This document shows positions 18,287 through 44,820 of a DNA stretch of 64,000 nucleotides, in pieces. The position numbers and the translations under genes are program-made. How positions within the stretch are numbered: position 1 is the stretch's first letter; the number at the start of each line of letters is the position of its first letter. Origin of the DNA: Anaerolineales bacterium (lineage in GTDB: Bacteria; Chloroflexota; Anaerolineae; Anaerolineales; Villigracilaceae); contig JACMLM010000035.1 of NCBI GenBank assembly GCA_014379595.1, positions 186,001 through 250,000 on the forward strand, in the 5' to 3' direction. Below the pieces are notes generated by a model that worked only from the letters and a program-made list of their open reading frames with translations, had not been told where the DNA came from and made no database searches.

Positions 18287-18323
18287 AAAGACCTCCGAGA
18301 TTTTTAAAATCTCGGAGGTCTTT
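18287..18323 (-). terminator. Intrinsic terminator of the homoserine dehydrogenase gene
   Basis: Perfect 18-bp stem, arms 18287-18304 and 18306-18323, including A- and T-runs on both sides. It begins 5 bp after the hom stop. The core (GACCTCCGAGA) recurs in the hairpin at 43312-43370. Confidence 0.85.
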
Positions 18324-37850: not shown

Positions 37851-38075
37851 TTATCCTGGGAGAAGTATTCCAGTGGTAACTCTCAACACAAAAGATGCCT
37901 TGCGGAGGTTACTTAAATTCATGTCGTTATCCTGAAAATCCTCATACGTTTCATAATCTCCGCGCCAGATTTTTAACGCAGTGGGTTCGCTGCATCCCCG
38001 CTTACGCATCTCGCCGATAAATTCATCGCAAGACATGTTGATACTTTCTGCTAATTCTTGAACTCTGCTTTTCAT
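37851..38075 (-). CDS. Small HTH-like protein, copy 1
   Basis: A 74-residue protein with helical repeats resembling a compact Cro/C1-type HTH. It has an N-terminal helix (VQELAESIN), a turn and recognition-like helix (SEPTALKIWRGDY), and a C-terminal helix (LRKASFVLRVTTG). A paralogue with about 75% identical residues is at 38511-38735. I recognise no named family, and the DNA-binding role is an inference. It is the first gene of the transcript that continues into the 1301-residue sortase fusion. A strong AAGGAG lies before the ATG. Confidence 0.7.
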   Translation of the reverse strand: MKSRVQELAESINMSCDEFIGEMRKRGCSEPTALKIWRGDYETYEDFQDNDMNLSNLRKASFVLRVTTGILLPG

Positions 38076-38510: not shown

Positions 38511-38735
38511 TTATTTTGGAAGCAAGGTGCCTGTAACAACTCTTAGCACAAAAGCAGCCTTACGCAGATTGCTCAAGTACATATCGTTATCATTAAAATC
38601 GTCAAATTTCTCGTAATCACCACGCCAGATTTTTATGGCAGTGGGTTCACTACAACCGCGCTTGCGCATCTCACCGATGAACTCATCATAGGTCATGTTA
38701 ATTTTTTCGGCTAATTCCTGGATCCTGCTTGTCAT
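38511..38735 (-). CDS. Small HTH-like protein, copy 2
   Basis: A 74-residue paralogue of the protein at 37851-38075, with the same core (EFIGEMRKRGCSEPTA, IKIWRGDY) and most changes at the ends. It has its own promoter (TTGACT-16-TATAAT at 38930-38903), SD (AAGGAGA) and terminator, so it is expressed separately. Small Cro/C1-like proteins near surface-protein genes are often regulators. Whether this one controls the sortase-fusion genes is untested. The duplication implies either a heteromer or divergent targets. Confidence 0.7.
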   Translation of the reverse strand: MTSRIQELAEKINMTYDEFIGEMRKRGCSEPTAIKIWRGDYEKFDDFNDNDMYLSNLRKAAFVLRVVTGTLLPK

Positions 38736-38902
38736 TGTCTATCTCCTTGTTTAATAAATGATGTAGTTGTTCAAAACTCATTCATTAAATTGAATTTCAA
38801 TTTAAAAACCAAACTGATGCATCAACTTCTAAACCTATGTATATTTAAGGTTAAAAAAATATAAAATCTTTTAATCTTTGCAATTTAGTAAGTATTAATG
38901 TC

Positions 38903-38930
38903 ATTATAATGTGGTTTATTCAAAAGTCAA
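38903..38930 (-). promoter_or_regulatory. Sigma-A type promoter of HTH copy 2
   Basis: TTGACT (38930-38925), a 16-bp spacer and TATAAT (38908-38903) on the minus strand. The predicted leader is about 160 nt and AT-rich. Confidence 0.8.
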
Positions 38931-39008
38931 TACTTACTGCTTCATATTTTTATGTTTTTCTAATATGATCTGGAAAAAAGCGTATTTTTAGAAAACGAAA
39001 ATTAGCGA

Positions 39009-39014
39009 TAAAAT
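39009..39014 (+). promoter_or_regulatory. -10 box of a leaderless transcript
   Basis: TAAAAT lies exactly 6 nt before the ATG at 39021, and no SD sequence is present between them. Confidence 0.45.
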
Positions 39015-39020
39015 AACTTT

Positions 39021-40241
39021 ATGCCCTCGCTTGCGGATAAACTAAAATCTCTTGGCGTTAAAATCGGGACTTCGCATCTCTCCCCGCCTCAACCTGCCCG
39101 CCATACAATTGACTCTGTGGTGGCTGGAACATTTCGCTCCACGCTGCTAGGTGATGCATTTGTGGCAGAGCAAACTTTCGGGGAGGAATATGTACACGGG
39201 AAGATTTCCCACCTTTCAGACTTCCCTCTTTCATTAATATCTCAATGGGCAAATGATCCTCGTATAGCGGAATTTCCGATCTCAAAGTTCGCTTTTCTCG
39301 ATACTGAAACATCTGGTATGGCAGGCGGCACAGGGACCTATGCCTTTCTGGTAGGTGTAGCTCGTTTTATAGACGGCAAATTCACTCTACAGCAATTTTT
39401 TCTGCGCGACCCTTCTGAAGAGCCAGCCATGCTCGAAGCGCTGATTCAATTTCTCGCGCCATGTGAGGCGTTGGTCACGTTTAATGGAAAATCATTCGAT
39501 GCGCCTCTGCTTGCCACTCGTTATTCATTACATAGAATCCCAGTACCGTTCAAAAATTATGCTCATCTAGACCTGCTTCCTCTTGCGCGGCGTTTATGGC
39601 GGGATAGGCTTCCCTCGCGTGCCTTGAAATATCTCGAAGAGCATGTGCTAGGTTTTACACGCACTTCTGATGAAGTGCCCGGGTATGAGATTCCCTGGTT
39701 ATATTTTGATTATCTGCGCACAGGAGATGCTCGCCCCTTAGCAGGAGTGTTCTACCATAATGCAATGGACGTAGTGGCCATGGCAGCATTGTTGGCTCAT
39801 GTCAGTGAATTGCTTGCCAACCCGTACAATGGCCGCGTGGAGCATGGACTGGATTTCATTGCGCTCGGTAAATTATTCGAGGATCTCAATCATTGGGATG
39901 AAGCCGCCCGTCTGTTTGAGCGTGGACTCGAGATCGGGCTGGAAGAAGCAGATTTCGGCGTAGCGGTGAAGCGCTTATCCATCTTGCAAAAAAAACGCGG
40001 GGATGTTGATGAAGCTCTTAGGTTGTGGGAACAAGCTGCGGAGAAAGGTCATATTTATGCTCATATCGAGCTGGCAAAGCATTATGAACATAAACGCCGT
40101 GATGTAGAGGCTTCGATGAAGTGGGCAAGGTCGGCACGAAAAGAAGTTGAGCTGTCAGACCTGCCAATATATATACGCAGGCATTGGCTGGATGAAATAG
40201 ATCACAGGCTGGCGCGATTAGAACGCAAAGCGGGTTTATAA
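39021..40241 (+). CDS. YprB-like ribonuclease H-fold exonuclease with C-terminal TPR-like repeats
   Basis: A 406-residue protein. Its N-terminal half carries a DEDD-type 3'-5' exonuclease core: FLDTETSG (motif I, Asp and Glu), VTFNGKSFDAPLL (motif II) and YHNAMDVVAMAAL (motif III). This matches the RNase_H_2/YprB family of predicted nucleases. From about residue 270 the protein has TPR-like helical pairs (LGKLFEDLNHWDEAARLFERG, ALRLWEQAAEKGHIYAHIEL). It is leaderless and monocistronic. The natural substrate is not known. Confidence 0.85.
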   Translation: MPSLADKLKSLGVKIGTSHLSPPQPARHTIDSVVAGTFRSTLLGDAFVAEQTFGEEYVHGKISHLSDFPLSLISQWANDPRIAEFPISKFAFLDTETSGMAGGTGTYAFLVGVARFIDGKFTLQQFFLRDPSEEPAMLEALIQFLAPCEALVTFNGKSFDAPLLATRYSLHRIPVPFKNYAHLDLLPLARRLWRDRLPSRALKYLEEHVLGFTRTSDEVPGYEIPWLYFDYLRTGDARPLAGVFYHNAMDVVAMAALLAHVSELLANPYNGRVEHGLDFIALGKLFEDLNHWDEAARLFERGLEIGLEEADFGVAVKRLSILQKKRGDVDEALRLWEQAAEKGHIYAHIELAKHYEHKRRDVEASMKWARSARKEVELSDLPIYIRRHWLDEIDHRLARLERKAGL

Positions 40242-40333
40242 TTGACTTTCACTCATCCACAGAGTGCCAAATAAGAATTAGAGTCAACTAGTAATTCTTC
40301 CAGAAAATTTATAAGCGGCATAGGAGCAATATT

Positions 40334-40738
40334 ATGGAAATTACTGTTTCGCAAGAGCAGGCTGTTACCATCTTACAACTTTCGGGTCAGTTGGACGGAC
40401 AAACTTATGAAACTTTGATCTCAAAGGCACGTGAAGCTATGGAGGGCGGAGCGCGAAATGTATTGCTGGATCTGAGTGAACTGACCTATATCTCCAGCGC
40501 AGGTTTGGTTTCCCTACATACAATCGCCTTAATGACTCGCGGTGAGACTCCACCAGATTCTGAGCAGGGATGGTCTGCCCTTAAGTCTATGGATAAAAAT
40601 CGTGATGGCGGTGTGCAGAAAAATATCAAGCTGCTTAATCCGCGCCCCGAGGTCAGCAGCGTTTTGGATATGGTTGGCTTTTCCGCGTTTTTTGAAGTGT
40701 TTACAGATAAACAAAAAGCTATTGAATCTTTTAGTTAA
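40334..40738 (+). CDS. STAS domain protein (anti-sigma factor antagonist type), first copy
   Basis: A 134-residue STAS-domain protein. The conserved phosphoacceptor region reads LTYISSAGLVSLHTI, and the C-terminal helix is VLDMVGFSAFFEVFTDKQKA. Compared with SpoIIAA there is an extra loop of about 30 residues (about 76-105) after the switch helix. STAS proteins relay Ser phosphorylation in partner-switching pathways. No kinase or phosphatase partner is nearby. It starts an operon with a ferric-reductase-like protein and a second STAS protein, an unusual combination. Confidence 0.85.
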   Translation: MEITVSQEQAVTILQLSGQLDGQTYETLISKAREAMEGGARNVLLDLSELTYISSAGLVSLHTIALMTRGETPPDSEQGWSALKSMDKNRDGGVQKNIKLLNPRPEVSSVLDMVGFSAFFEVFTDKQKAIESFS

Positions 40739-40743
40739 AGTTT

Positions 40744-40772
40744 ACAGCGATGCAGTGATACTGCATCGCTGT
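40744..40772 (+). terminator. Intra-operon hairpin between STAS and ferric reductase genes
   Basis: Perfect 12-bp stem, arms 40744-40755 and 40761-40772, with a 5-nt loop. There is no T-run after it, so it is more likely a partial terminator or an mRNA-stabilising element than a full stop. Confidence 0.5.
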
Positions 40773-40818
40773 TGATTCATATATACAGAACTTAATCCGA
40801 AATGACTGGAGAGGTAAA

Positions 40819-42096
40819 ATGAAAAAAAATCTTGGTAACATTGTTATTATTGCTCTTGTCGTTATCAACGTCATTGTTTGGATCGTCTTCCCTCCTGAAC
40901 CAGAACCAACTCATAATTTTGCCCGTGCCTATGCTGGAGAAGTACTCGGCTCCACCATGATCATGTTGATGTCCTTCTCATTGTTCATCTCCACTCGCCC
41001 AAAGTGGGCTGAGCAGTTCTTCGGCGGTCTGGACAAGATGTATATGACTCATCGACGGACATCTACAAGCGCATTTCTGTTAATGTTCGTACATGTGTTA
41101 ACGGTCCCAATTACGATTATGAATCTACGCATTGGGAACTATCTAGGGATCATCGCCTTTTTGGGAATTATCGCGATCGTTTTGCCAACCCTTGCACCGC
41201 GTATTCCATTTCTAAACAAGCTGACAGGGCCAGACTATGAAGACTGGAAGAAATTGCATCGCTATATTGGCATCTTTTTCTTTCTTGGATATCTACATTC
41301 GATTTCAGTAAACGCCCCGATTGCCCATGTTGCCATCAACTGGACACAGATCTTTGTTATCCTCGGCATAGGTTCTTATCTCTACACTGAGGTCTTTGGA
41401 CGTTTCTTCAAGAAATATCTGCCTTACACTGTCGAAGCTGTAAACCATCCAAATAACTCAACCACTGAGGTGGTCATGCGTGCAAAGAAAAGCGCTGTCA
41501 AAGGACAACGCGCGGGACAATTCTTGTTCGTACGATTTCCAAAGGAAAAGACACTTAACGAATCTCATCCTTTCACTATATCCAGTGCACCCAAGGAAGA
41601 TGTATTACGCCTGACGATCAAAGCCAGCGGTAACTTCACACGTGATCTTTTTAGTCATCTTAAAGTTGGCACAGAGGCACTCATTGAAGGTTCTTATGGC
41701 ATGTTTGATTACAAAACGGGCGGGCAGAAACAGATCTGGGTGGCAGGGGGAATCGGTGTCACACCTTTCCTATCTTTCATCCGAGATATGAAAGATGATC
41801 TTGCTCACGATGTGGATTTTTATTACACTGTGCGCCATGCCGAAGAAGCTGTATTCGTGGACGAGATCAAGTCCATTGCAGAAAAGAATCCCCGCTTGAA
41901 GGCATATATCCGTTTCTCATCCATTGACGGCTCGTTGACGATTGAAGACATTGTTAAAAATGCGGGAGGGAATGTTCGCGAGCACGATGTATATATGTGT
42001 GGACCACTGCCAATGGTGCAAGCCTTTGAAAAGAAATTCCTTGAAGCAGGTGTACCCGCAGGTAGTATTCATTATGAAGAATTCAACTTTAGGTAA
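40819..42096 (+). CDS. Ferric-reductase-like transmembrane flavocytochrome oxidoreductase
   Basis: A 425-residue membrane oxidoreductase. Six helices carry the heme-ligand-type His pairs (MTHRRTS, MFVHVLT, LHRYIG, YLHSIS). A ferredoxin-NADP reductase module follows, with flavin-binding ESHPFTISSAP and the NAD(P) motif VAGGIGVTPFLSF. It ends with YMCGPLPMVQAF. Electrons should pass from NAD(P)H to heme and then across the membrane to ferric iron or another acceptor. AGAGG precedes the ATG. STAS proteins flank it on both sides, suggesting phosphorelay-type control or a protein-protein role for them. Confidence 0.9.
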   Translation: MKKNLGNIVIIALVVINVIVWIVFPPEPEPTHNFARAYAGEVLGSTMIMLMSFSLFISTRPKWAEQFFGGLDKMYMTHRRTSTSAFLLMFVHVLTVPITIMNLRIGNYLGIIAFLGIIAIVLPTLAPRIPFLNKLTGPDYEDWKKLHRYIGIFFFLGYLHSISVNAPIAHVAINWTQIFVILGIGSYLYTEVFGRFFKKYLPYTVEAVNHPNNSTTEVVMRAKKSAVKGQRAGQFLFVRFPKEKTLNESHPFTISSAPKEDVLRLTIKASGNFTRDLFSHLKVGTEALIEGSYGMFDYKTGGQKQIWVAGGIGVTPFLSFIRDMKDDLAHDVDFYYTVRHAEEAVFVDEIKSIAEKNPRLKAYIRFSSIDGSLTIEDIVKNAGGNVREHDVYMCGPLPMVQAFEKKFLEAGVPAGSIHYEEFNFR

Positions 42097-42129
42097 AATG
42101 TATTTATCTTTTATGCCGAGGAGAAGCTA

Positions 42130-42540
42130 ATGCAAATCTCTGTTTCCAAACAGGAAGGCCGCGTTCCTGTCACCATCATACAATTGACGGGTGAACTGGA
42201 TGCATCCAACTACACAGATGTTATCAACAAGGCTCAAGAATCATATGATGAGGGAGTACGAGATCTATTGATAGATCTCACTAAAGTTCCATATGTGAGC
42301 AGCGCAGGATTAATGTCTTTACATACAATTGTATTAATATTTGCAGGTCAATCGATGCAATCCAAGGAAACGGGCCGTCCTTCATTTCGTGCCATTAATC
42401 CGCAGCTTGATAGTGCTGGACTCCAACATGTGAAGTTAATGGGTCTACAGCCAGCTGTTGAACAGGTATTGGATGTGGTAGGGTTAAAACAGTTCCTTGA
42501 TATTCACACTGATCTTCAAAAAGCAATTCAATCTTTCTAA
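42130..42540 (+). CDS. STAS domain protein, second copy
   Basis: A 136-residue paralogue of the STAS protein at 40334. The switch region is VPYVSSAGLMSLHTIVL, and the C-terminus VEQVLDVVGLKQFLDIHTD aligns with that of copy one. The loop insertion after the switch helix is conserved in both copies, so the pair is a lineage-specific subfamily. It has a GAGGAG SD. The gene lies 33 bp after the oxidoreductase gene and 9 bp before a rhodanese-like gene, in the same operon. Confidence 0.85.
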   Translation: MQISVSKQEGRVPVTIIQLTGELDASNYTDVINKAQESYDEGVRDLLIDLTKVPYVSSAGLMSLHTIVLIFAGQSMQSKETGRPSFRAINPQLDSAGLQHVKLMGLQPAVEQVLDVVGLKQFLDIHTDLQKAIQSF

Positions 42541-42549
42541 GGCTAGGGC

Positions 42550-43017
42550 ATGAGATACCGCAGCAGAACATTTAAAACCAAAAACAACACACGCAAGCCG
42601 CTATTTCCATTTTTGAGAAAGCCTGCGGGTCAATTGGCTGTTGTTCTGCTCGTTATTTTCATTGTTTATTTGATTGCATCCGCTGGAGGAAGAGGTGGCT
42701 CCGCTCGTGAAATCAGCGTGGATGAAACGTATTTAAAATATCAGGCTGGCACTTTTATTTTAGATGTGAGCTGGCCTGCGGAATGGGATGAGTATCATAT
42801 ACCCAACACAACACTGATCCCGCTTGATCAATTATATAATCGTATTAATGAAGTCCCCAACGACAGGGAAATTCTGGTGGTGAGTCGTTCTGCTGCCAGC
42901 AGCCAACAGGCGCGCGACCTTTTAATTTCAGCAGGGATGGATGCCATCAGCATGGCAGGTGACTTAAGTTCATGGTATGTAAAAGGCTATCCTATCGAAG
43001 GTGCGCCGCCGCAATAA
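42550..43017 (+). CDS. Membrane-anchored rhodanese-like protein lacking the catalytic Cys
   Basis: A 155-residue protein with an N-terminal transmembrane helix (AVVLLVIFIVYLIASA at about 29-45) and a single rhodanese domain outside the membrane (TFILDVSWPAEWDEYHIPNT). In rhodaneses the active loop begins VYCRSG with a catalytic Cys. Here it is VVSRSAASS, so Ser replaces Cys and sulfur transfer is not expected. It may be a binding or regulatory module. The gene lies directly after the second STAS gene. Confidence 0.8.
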   Translation: MRYRSRTFKTKNNTRKPLFPFLRKPAGQLAVVLLVIFIVYLIASAGGRGGSAREISVDETYLKYQAGTFILDVSWPAEWDEYHIPNTTLIPLDQLYNRINEVPNDREILVVSRSAASSQQARDLLISAGMDAISMAGDLSSWYVKGYPIEGAPPQ

Positions 43018-43065
43018 TGATATAACCTTCTATTTGCAACTGCTTACAATCTCAAGGAGTTTATT

Positions 43066-43245
43066 ATGTGTATAATATGTGCAAGCATCCCGATGGCTGC
43101 AGCTATGGGTGCAAAAATTAATGCAAATCAATTAATACAGCCCATGGAAAAACGAAAACCAATTGGCAAGTTTACAAGTATGATCATTGGCCTGCTTGTA
43201 ATTACATCGGTTGTATATCACACACTGCGTTGGCAGGATCAGTGA
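43066..43245 (+). CDS. 59-residue CxxC single-pass membrane peptide
   Basis: A short gene with a good SD (AAGGAG, 8 nt before ATG). The peptide begins MCIICASIPMAAAMGA, with a CxxC pair at residues 2-5, and has one transmembrane helix (MIIGLLVITSVVYHTL at about 39-54). It is downstream of the rhodanese-like gene by 48 bp, in the same direction, and probably belongs to the same redox operon. A metal or disulfide role for the CxxC is inference. No family is recognised. Translation was checked codon by codon to the TGA at 43243-43245. Confidence 0.7.
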   Translation: MCIICASIPMAAAMGAKINANQLIQPMEKRKPIGKFTSMIIGLLVITSVVYHTLRWQDQ

Positions 43246-43311
43246 ACGAAAAGTGTTAGTTTTCAAATTATATCTGTTGGGAATATTACGAATTGGATTT
43301 GGTAATAATTA

Positions 43312-43370
43312 TAGAAGACCTCCGAGTTCTTGCGAAGTACCCTGTGGGTAAAGAACTCGGAGGTCTTCTA
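43312..43370 (+). terminator. Terminator-like 20-bp perfect hairpin
   Basis: Arms 43312-43331 and 43351-43370 are exact reverse complements (20 bp) with a 19-nt loop. The GACCTCCGAG core also occurs in the hom terminator. It ends the redox operon before the regulator promoter. Confidence 0.75.
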
Positions 43371-43375
43371 CTATC

Positions 43376-43404
43376 TTGACTCTCCGCTTTTTCTCCTTTA
43401 CACT
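43376..43404 (+). promoter_or_regulatory. Promoter of the Fur-family regulator gene
   Basis: TTGACT (43376-43381), a 17-bp spacer and TACACT (43399-43404). The predicted start near 43411 lies within the Fur-box-like palindrome. Confidence 0.7.
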
Positions 43405-43408
43405 TATT

Positions 43409-43427
43409 GACAATGATTTTCATTATC
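43409..43427 (+). promoter_or_regulatory. Fur-box-like operator
   Basis: A 19-bp sequence with arms GACAATGA and TCATTATC around a TTT centre matches the classical Fur box at 16 of 19 positions. It covers the predicted transcription start of the regulator and metal importer genes. Confidence 0.75.
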
Positions 43428-43440
43428 AAAGAGAGCGTTT

Positions 43441-43863
43441 ATGTCTGCTAAACTCTGGCTCACCCAACTACAGGAAAATGGCTATCGCCTTACCAAAGCT
43501 CGCAGTGCGGTGGTTGAGATCGTGCAAAAATCACTGCGCGCGCTTACACCTGTCGAGGTCTATGATATGGCACGTAAGAAATATCGCGCCCTTGGCTTGG
43601 TCACGGTTTATCGCACATTGGAAAAGCTTGAAGAACTTCACCTCATTCAACGTGTGCACCAACCGATGGGATGCCAGGCTTTCATTTCAGCTGGGGAAGG
43701 TCATCAGCATTTATTACTGTGCCAAAACTGCGGACAGGTGGCTTTCTTCGAGGGTGATGATCTGGATATTCTCACGAAATCTATTGCCAAAAAAACAGGC
43801 TACAAGATCCAGGAACACTGGCTGCAACTCTTTGGCCTGTGCGCGAACTGTCGCGTAAATTAA
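43441..43863 (+). CDS. Fur/Zur family metalloregulator
   Basis: A 140-residue Fur superfamily repressor. The winged-helix region is LTKARSAVVEIVQKS with VTVYRTLEKLEELHLIQRV. The C-terminal domain has GHQHLLLCQNCG and a second CANC pair, which together hold the structural zinc. HQH and the downstream EEL/Glu residues are the regulatory metal site. Fur boxes at the promoter and an adjacent metal importer argue that it autoregulates and represses uptake when metal is sufficient. Sequence alone does not separate Fur from Zur. Confidence 0.9.
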   Translation: MSAKLWLTQLQENGYRLTKARSAVVEIVQKSLRALTPVEVYDMARKKYRALGLVTVYRTLEKLEELHLIQRVHQPMGCQAFISAGEGHQHLLLCQNCGQVAFFEGDDLDILTKSIAKKTGYKIQEHWLQLFGLCANCRVN

Positions 43864-43914
43864 TATAATCAAAACTCCTCGCTAAATTGAGAGAGAGAAA
43901 AAAAGAAATCATAA

Positions 43915-44820
43915 ATGAAACAGATTATCAATTCCATTATTGCGAGTTTAACTCTTGCGACTCTTTTCTTAACTTCATGTGGTTCAGTCTCAACAAGCAA
44001 TGACAGCGGCTTGAACATTCTCGCCTCAACCACCTTCCTCGCAGATATTGCTCAGAATATCGCAGGTGACCGCCTGGTAGTGACATCACTTCTGCCTGCT
44101 GGCTCAGACCCTCATGCCTATCAAGCCGCACCTTCTGACGTAGCTAGGATCACTGAAAGTGATTTATTGATCCTCAATGGTCTTGAATATGAACATTTCA
44201 TTGAGTCTTTACTGGAAAACAGTGGAGGGGAGCGACTGATCATCGAGGCCACGACAGGCCTAAGTCCAAATGAAGATGCGGAGAGTGAACATGGAGTCGA
44301 TCCACATATGTGGCTGGATCCCAATCTCGTCGTTACATACGTCGAAAATATCCGCATTGGACTCACTGAAATTGATCCTGATGGCGCGGATATATATAAG
44401 ATGAATGCAGAGGAATATATTGTTCAATTAAAGAATCTTGATTCGTGGATCGTGGAACAGATAAATACGATTCCTGTTAAACGCCGTTTGTTGGTGACTA
44501 ATCATGAAGCATTCGGATATTTTGCGAAGCGATATGGTTTTAAAATAATAGGCTCTGTGATCCCGAGTTTTAGTAGTAATGCAGCCCCTTCTGCGAAGGA
44601 AATGGCAAGCCTGATAGATGAAATCAAAAGACTCAATGTGCCCACTATATTTTTGGACACAGCCGAGAACGATACGATTGCCAAACAGGTAGCTGATGAA
44701 ACAAACGTTATGATTATAGATGATCTGCATTTGGAATCATTAACTGAAGGCGCACCCGCCGCGACTTATATTGACATGATGAAACATAACGTTTCAAGAA
44801 TTGTAGAGGCTTTGAAATAA
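43915..44820 (+). CDS. Metal ABC transporter substrate-binding lipoprotein (cluster A-I, zinc/manganese)
   Basis: A 301-residue TroA/ZnuA-like binding protein with lipobox LFLTSC (Cys20). The likely metal ligands are His in GSDPHAYQ, His in GVDPHMWLDP, His in TNHEAFGYF, and the acidic residue in FLDTAEN. The long His-rich loop of ZnuA is lacking, with only a short EDAESEHGVD segment. The three-His set is compatible with Zn2+ or Mn2+. The permease and ATPase follow in the same operon. Confidence 0.92.
   Translation: MKQIINSIIASLTLATLFLTSCGSVSTSNDSGLNILASTTFLADIAQNIAGDRLVVTSLLPAGSDPHAYQAAPSDVARITESDLLILNGLEYEHFIESLLENSGGERLIIEATTGLSPNEDAESEHGVDPHMWLDPNLVVTYVENIRIGLTEIDPDGADIYKMNAEEYIVQLKNLDSWIVEQINTIPVKRRLLVTNHEAFGYFAKRYGFKIIGSVIPSFSSNAAPSAKEMASLIDEIKRLNVPTIFLDTAENDTIAKQVADETNVMIIDDLHLESLTEGAPAATYIDMMKHNVSRIVEALK

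Follow-up and report, generated by a model that had tools for sequence, protein, structure and literature searches.

The 64,000-nt window analyzed here (positions 186,001 to 250,000 on the forward strand of contig JACMLM010000035.1, Anaerolineales bacterium GCA_014379595.1) contains a compact gene cluster in which a transmembrane oxidoreductase resembling SpNOX, the Streptococcus pneumoniae NADPH oxidase (NOX; PDB 8qt6, 8qq7), is encoded between two paralogous STAS proteins. The best-supported reading is that this SpNOX-type enzyme shares its gene cluster with an RsbV-like pair of STAS proteins, probably controlled by a kinase acting in trans. The STAS-NOX arrangement is more than a chance neighborhood. 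To the fuller model we assign a probability of about 0.4: a lineage-specific operon in which a SpNOX-type enzyme sits in an exo-STAS-rhodanese cluster, and in which the STAS pair, phosphorylated in trans, tunes NOX or couples it to the stress state. A bacterial NOX kept between two phosphorylation-switch proteins would let one ask, in a natural setting, whether prokaryotic NOX activity is controlled and by what means. The question is relevant because SpNOX is termed constitutively active in the portions of the literature cited here, where it is also left in doubt whether the bacterial homologs have oxygen as their physiological acceptor.

The original prediction described five open reading frames (ORFs) between 40334 and 43245, and their coordinates and close spacing were confirmed on the + strand, with intergenic gaps of 80, 33, 9, and 48 bp. 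The exo gene, which is the usual opener of the cluster, ends 92 bp before the start of STAS1. The features of the locus are as follows.

39021 to 40241, + strand: exo, an RNase H-like protein with a TPR region (Pfam RNase_H_2, E 1.5e-38)
40334 to 40738, + strand: STAS1, a long-loop, STAS-only, RsbV-like protein of 134 aa (Pfam STAS, E 2.4e-12)
40819 to 42096, + strand: NOX, a SpNOX-type NAD(P)H/FAD/di-heme transmembrane oxidoreductase of 425 aa (Pfam Ferric_reduct, FAD_binding_8, and NAD_binding_1)
42130 to 42540, + strand: STAS2, a paralog of STAS1 of 136 aa (Pfam STAS; STAS tree; 41% identity)
42550 to 43017, + strand: a membrane-anchored rhodanese-like protein of 155 aa with Ser in place of the catalytic Cys (Pfam Rhodanese, E 1e-7)
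43066 to 43245, + strand: a CxxC micro-protein of 59 aa with one hydrophobic segment, conserved in relatives
43312 to 43370, strand not applicable: a perfect 20-bp inverted repeat with a 19-nt loop, between the CxxC gene and a Fur-type gene
43409 to 43427, + strand: a Fur/Zur-box-like palindrome upstream of the Fur-type regulator, with one mismatch to GATAATGATTTTCATTATC; it belongs to the neighboring unit, outside the STAS-NOX operon

By sequence and modeled fold the window flavocytochrome is a SpNOX-family protein, and NAD(P)H-dependent superoxide production, the activity that marks prokaryotic NOX, is putative for it. SpNOX 8qt6 is the closest solved structure both by sequence (phmmer E 4.5e-42) and by fold, the latter with an AlphaFold model as query (Foldseek E 2.3e-26; template modeling score 0.78 by query length). 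The alignments used for structure modeling held 24 NOX rows and 32 STAS rows, drawn from the window and loci L031 to L060. Likeness to SpNOX extends to domain order, length, the FAD and NADPH motifs, the C-terminal aromatic region, and the four heme histidines. The filter of Hajjar et al. for prokaryotic NOX proteins asks for two His pairs (PMC5676040, in the part cited here), and two pairs of the form His-X12-14-His are present in the membrane domain of the window protein: H78-X13-H92 and H147-X12-H160. All four residues are kept, and their spacing is that of SpNOX 69/83 and 129/142, where His69 and His129 bind the inner heme and His83 and His142 the outer heme (PMC11564096, as excerpted). 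The window protein carries HPFT at 250-253 for FAD and AGGIGVTPFL at 309-318 for NADPH, in addition to CGP and a C-terminal EEFNF. Both sites agree with HPF[TS] and GGxGxTP, which we take to be the FAD and NADPH motifs of prokaryotic NOX. Two differences from SpNOX stand out: a STAS, rhodanese, or Rsb context is not mentioned for SpNOX in the cited portions of its literature, and many relatives of the window NOX carry Lys at one heme-ligand position.

The two STAS proteins are 41% identical, and each contains a single STAS domain with no second domain recognized by Pfam. The STAS1 model is good (predicted local distance difference test score, pLDDT, 87.7), its weak part being the loop at residues ~71-90, and its best fold matches are SpoIIAA, RsbV-like chains, and other antagonists. 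In the alignment to chain 1th8_B, STAS1 Ser55 falls on the phosphorylated Ser of SpoIIAA, which is Ser58 (PMC8256260, as excerpted). Of 97 long-loop STAS proteins, 96 have Ser in this column and one has Thr; all 38 STAS proteins encoded upstream of NOX, the window included, have Ser. The original prediction singled out an unusual loop, and STAS1 and STAS2 do share a long loop after SSAGL; the distance from SSAGL to the next conserved strand is 39 residues in 73 of the 97 proteins, compared with 17 in the genome's own RsbV, so that the window proteins carry ~20 extra residues after the phospho-Ser helix. The loop is not peculiar to the operon: among the 11 STAS matches in the window genome there are five long-loop STAS genes, three of them elsewhere, and the loop was rejected as a mark of the operon.

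Long-loop STAS genes occur in 28 of 400 phylum genomes. Eight loci outside the window's family were inspected with 1.5-kb flanks, and in five of them (L215, L217 to L220) an RsbW-type kinase gene lies directly upstream of the long-loop STAS gene. These five are all the inspected loci of family f79, from another class, and their kinases are 34-41% identical to the kinase of L179 or L197, the two loci inside the window family in which a Pfam HATPase_c_2 protein directly precedes STAS. Because of the fold, the phospho-Ser, and the adjacent RsbW-type kinases in some relatives, the long-loop STAS proteins probably descend from the RsbV of RsbV-RsbW pairs. The partner-switching character proposed for the STAS proteins is upheld to this extent, that they look like antagonists and that an RsbW-type kinase adjoins them in seven other loci. 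They differ from RsbV and SpoIIAA antagonists, besides the loop, in forming two paralogs on either side of an oxidoreductase in a kinase-free operon. A candidate kinase is encoded elsewhere in the window genome: C15:46496, of 139 aa, is the only one of its 16 HATPase_c_2 matches in a short frame, and it stands beside the genome's own RsbV (G000:C15). One of the five SpoIIE-type domains in this genome is at C15:43209, ~2.7 kb from this RsbW-RsbV pair.

Conservation of the locus was followed in three sets of genomes. Among 298 genomes of the class, 111 gave some NOX match, mostly to the dehydrogenase part, and nine (the window genome included) at least 41% identity. A pattern scan of one genome per species for 84,980 species returned 30 loci, close relatives only; they are labeled Chloroflexi, Anaerolineales, Anaerolineae, or Anaerolineaceae, with Brevefilum and Herpetosiphon once each. 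Among 80 genomes of the family, 23 (the window genome included) have a near-full-length NOX match of at least 43% identity, and two have fragments; the NOX fragments in G321 and G322 were left out. Counting identical NOX proteins once gave 48 distinct proteins, the window included, among which the near-identical pairs L004/L040 and L059/L191 are all counted. A NOX ortholog (E up to 1e-60) was present in 12 of 400 phylum genomes, the window genome included, all of the same family.

The original prediction staked itself on these genes being adjacent in related genomes, and they are. STAS genes flank NOX on both sides in 30 of the 47 distinct relatives. Of the 45 relatives that could be assessed on the upstream side (all but L009 and L044), 37 have a same-strand STAS gene at most 1.2 kb before NOX, in L170 with an intervening gene; of the 46 assessable downstream (all but L060), 32 have a STAS gene at most 1 kb after it. 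In 36 of the 47 an exo gene lies no more than 2.5 kb ahead of NOX, and exo is also found in clusters that have no NOX. A tree of 97 STAS rows over 136 columns, with many forks open, places STAS1 and STAS2 in separate clades. The STAS2 clade has 33 rows, with a Shimodaira-Hasegawa-like approximate likelihood ratio test (SH-aLRT) support of 96.

How the STAS pair might act on the enzyme can be sketched as follows. The cluster would be older than the insertion of NOX, and the operon genes would be co-expressed. NOX would take electrons from NAD(P)H in the cytosol and hand them on, by way of FAD and its two hemes, to an acceptor on the outer side of the membrane. STAS1 and STAS2 would be phosphorylated in trans by the RsbW-RsbV/SpoIIE-type module on C15. 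Depending on phosphorylation state, the pair would then bind and tune the cytosolic dehydrogenase domain of NOX or couple the enzyme to the stress state. An action of partner switching on NOX is plausible from sequence comparison, and the original prediction as a whole is partly borne out.

Several observations weigh against this model. The Pfam scan recognized neither a kinase nor a phosphatase among the products of the window operon, so that a cognate RsbW-type kinase does not stand alongside the STAS genes there, and within 1.5-kb flanks a kinase was not found in three of the eight loci outside the family (L213, L214, L216). Both window STAS proteins score below the NCBIfam TIGR00377 cut-off (49.1 and 47.2 bits versus 53.45) and are therefore termed RsbV-like rather than filed as members. 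The NOX model is of moderate quality (pLDDT 75.7). The genes are also separable. NOX occurs without STAS in seven of the 45 relatives assessable upstream (L052, L055, L056, L059, L182, L191, L193), and L189 lacks STAS1 only. STAS1-STAS2-rhodanese occurs without NOX in genomes G355 (L165) and G705 (L209), and in G298 the trio (L166) is kept while NOX stands alone elsewhere (L167). After NOX loss the STAS genes do not evolve clearly faster than exo, the control: the z values for L165 and L166 are 6.6 and 11.0 for exo, 6.4 and 8.2 for STAS1, and 4.0 and 14.3 for STAS2, and only STAS2 of L166 exceeds the control, in one of four comparisons. When exo is controlled for, STAS1 shows a partial co-divergence with NOX of 0.06 and STAS2 one of 0.30; the value for exo with NOX, controlling for STAS1, is 0.50. 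These rate and co-divergence tests covered 25 loci, 22 of them with NOX; G705 (L209) is in neither the rate test nor the STAS tree. With tests that are not clearly positive and genes that can part, the positive case for a functional link is carried mainly by conserved adjacency. The proposal that switching acts on electron transfer is not supported, in view of the kinase- and phosphatase-free operon, the separability of NOX and STAS, and the coupling tests.

The same data leave a real place, short of probable, for an explanation by neighborhood only. NOX would have been inserted into an old neighborhood of exo, STAS, rhodanese, Fur-type, and Znu genes, perhaps sharing a transcript, with no mutual action of STAS and NOX. 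Family genomes that keep exo-STAS without an adjoining NOX fit this explanation (L165, L166, L171 to L175, L177, L180), as do the standalone NOX orthologs and the distances of exo, which track those of STAS1 and STAS2 (correlations 0.82 and 0.79) better than NOX distances do (0.63 and 0.71). It accounts less well for the position of STAS2, which lies downstream of NOX in 31 of the 33 rows of its clade (L008 being counted by its gene position; the exceptions are L165 and L166), or for the persistence of STAS on both sides of NOX at ~65% NOX identity (L054, L058) while the genes further out vary. Gating of NOX, a signal fed by NOX, and mere neighborhood are not separated by the data.

Exactly one heme-ligand His is replaced by Lys in 21 of the 48 NOX proteins: at the inner-heme position His147 in 17 and at the outer-heme position His92 in four (two of which, L004 and L040, are near-identical), and never at both. 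The His147 change maps to one clade of 18 rows (SH-aLRT 93), whose sole member with His is L054. All 21 distant homologs (L010 to L030) have the four His and no Lys swap. We found nothing on Lys heme ligands in NOX in the open-license PubMed Central (PMC) literature. It is conceivable, and in our view doubtful, that the two dedicated STAS proteins and a small basic partner with a single transmembrane helix (the pseudo-rhodanese anchor) gate NOX, an arrangement that would have arisen separately from that of animal NOX2 with its cytosolic factors and p22phox, and that in this family one heme has shifted, at two positions, to His/Lys ligation. The substituted positions provide ready-made variants with which to test the influence of heme ligation on electron flow.

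Signaling might also run in the opposite direction. The redox state of NOX would then be the input, relayed by STAS1 and STAS2 to an anti-sigma kinase, and the operon would therefore serve as a redox sensor, not as an oxidase under regulation. The RsbV-like character of the STAS proteins suits such a relay, and Mycobacterium smegmatis has partner switching that follows the respiratory chain (PMC10950880, as excerpted); yet the window STAS proteins have no second domain, the operon has no kinase, and STAS pairs persist without NOX, and we regard this direction as unlikely. The M. smegmatis SigF-RsbW-RsfB system resembles the window locus in tying partner switching to electron-transport state, and the general idea is therefore not new. 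The systems differ in that, according to the cited part of that paper, a two-component phosphatase acts there on a sigma-factor switch, whereas here an oxidoreductase is encoded between STAS genes. In the open-license PMC literature we did not find an operon described in which STAS genes accompany a ferric reductase or NADPH oxidase in bacteria.

The rhodanese-like protein following STAS2 reads SRSAASS at the active site; CRSGNRS is the reading in 30 of 37 rows, a set that includes the window, and the report of Ser in place of the catalytic Cys is confirmed. The active-site residue is Cys in 32 of these rows, Ser in four, and Asp in one divergent row. The Ser rows (the window, L195, the first of two tandem copies in L039, the other having Cys, and L165) form one clade (SH-aLRT 99). 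Among them the proportion of nonsynonymous differences (pN) is 0.18-0.26 and that of synonymous differences (pS) 0.72-0.85, with synonymous sites near saturation, a pattern that points to purifying selection on the Ser clade. A chance mutation or pseudogene was rejected on the strength of a four-member clade with pN far below pS. Elsewhere in the window genome (95% complete) no closely similar copy of the anchored protein with Cys was found; three other matches are 37% identical. The protein has a basic N-terminal tail and one transmembrane segment (hydrophobic residues 29-47). Under the positive-inside rule its charges place the rhodanese domain, by prediction, outside the membrane. It shares a Pfam Rhodanese match and weak NCBIfam matches with GlpE/PspE-type domains and differs from them in lacking the catalytic Cys and in having an N-terminal membrane anchor; a search of the open-license PMC literature gave nothing on point for the rhodanese. 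In six loci (L007, L008, L050, L051, L053, L058) the gene after STAS2 encodes a basic tail and one transmembrane helix only, the rhodanese domain being missing. In the trans-phosphorylation model the pseudo-rhodanese would be a membrane accessory in which the anchor matters most, not catalysis.

By analogy with MsrQ, which feeds MsrP, NOX might instead reduce an anchored extracytoplasmic rhodanese (a persulfide on Cys), since a rhodanese gene lies at most 3 kb downstream of NOX in 26 of the 47 relatives (25 of the Cys form) and the cited part of the SpNOX paper describes an exposed outer heme like that of MsrQ and leaves acceptors other than oxygen possible (PMC11564096), but the window protein has Ser, six NOX loci lack the domain, and the rhodanese also occurs without NOX (the Ser form itself in G355), which makes this very improbable. 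In 7 to 9 of the 30 loci L031 to L060, such as L032 (5944-9195), genes for an ArsP_1 permease, a DUF1980 protein, and an Ig-like/PD40 protein lie downstream of the rhodanese gene; these genes are not at the corresponding place in the window.

The fifth ORF was described as part of the operon, and the gene is real, but its membership does not hold. The CxxC peptide begins MCIIC, contains one hydrophobic segment, and matches no Pfam or NCBIfam family. Homologs are encoded in 22 of 80 family genomes, the window genome included (L143 to L164), and the pair formed by the window and L144 has pN 0.18 and pS 0.74, as is expected of a conserved gene. Of the 22 copies, 14 have a Fur-type gene within 1.5 kb and two more have ZnuA without a Fur-type gene (16 of 22 in total, the window included), whereas NOX is near the gene in five. 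In L151 to L155 the CxxC gene stands between the Fur-type gene and ZnuC; in L145 and L146 NOX and rhodanese are near and a Fur-type gene is not in reach; four copies (L149, L150, L163, L164) have no Fur-type, Znu, or NOX gene in reach. Membership of the STAS-NOX operon was rejected for a peptide that goes with Fur-type/ZnuABC genes in relatives. The operon boundary is corrected by this assignment: on its gene context, the micro-protein is an uncharacterized, conserved member of the zinc-uptake neighborhood next door and a candidate accessory of zinc uptake. In the window its gene follows the rhodanese gene by 48 bp, and co-transcription there is therefore possible. Nothing on point about a zinc-linked CxxC micro-protein was found in the open-license PMC literature.

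A Fur/Zur-like box (at most four mismatches within 200 bases upstream) precedes 23 of 29 Fur-type genes, compared with 29 of 3000 random stretches, and none of 47 exo, 42 STAS1, 52 NOX, 14 CxxC, or 29 ZnuA genes. To call the Fur-type regulator Zur would be to judge by its neighbor genes.

In 38700-44000 the promoter and terminator scans returned about as many hits as in shuffled sequence (14 versus 11.7 and 6 versus 4.1), and the terminator scan did not list the inverted repeat at 43312-43370 on the + strand. Inverted repeats with GACCTCCGAG arms are present in the window at 43312-43370 and at 18290-18320. The genome contains 35 exact copies of the AGACCTCCGAG arm, including the two of 43312-43370, and none of the reversed control; 32 of the 35 face a partner copy less than 60 bp away. 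The repeat at 43312-43370 is possibly a transcription end or a dispersed hairpin element, and the AGACCTCCGAG/GACCTCCGAG matches suggest a genome-wide hairpin or terminator family.

Two similar ORFs of 74 aa lie ~440 bp apart on the - strand, at 37851-38075 and 38511-38735; a Pfam scan of the second alone gave a weak IF2_N-like match (E 0.015, below the family cut-off).

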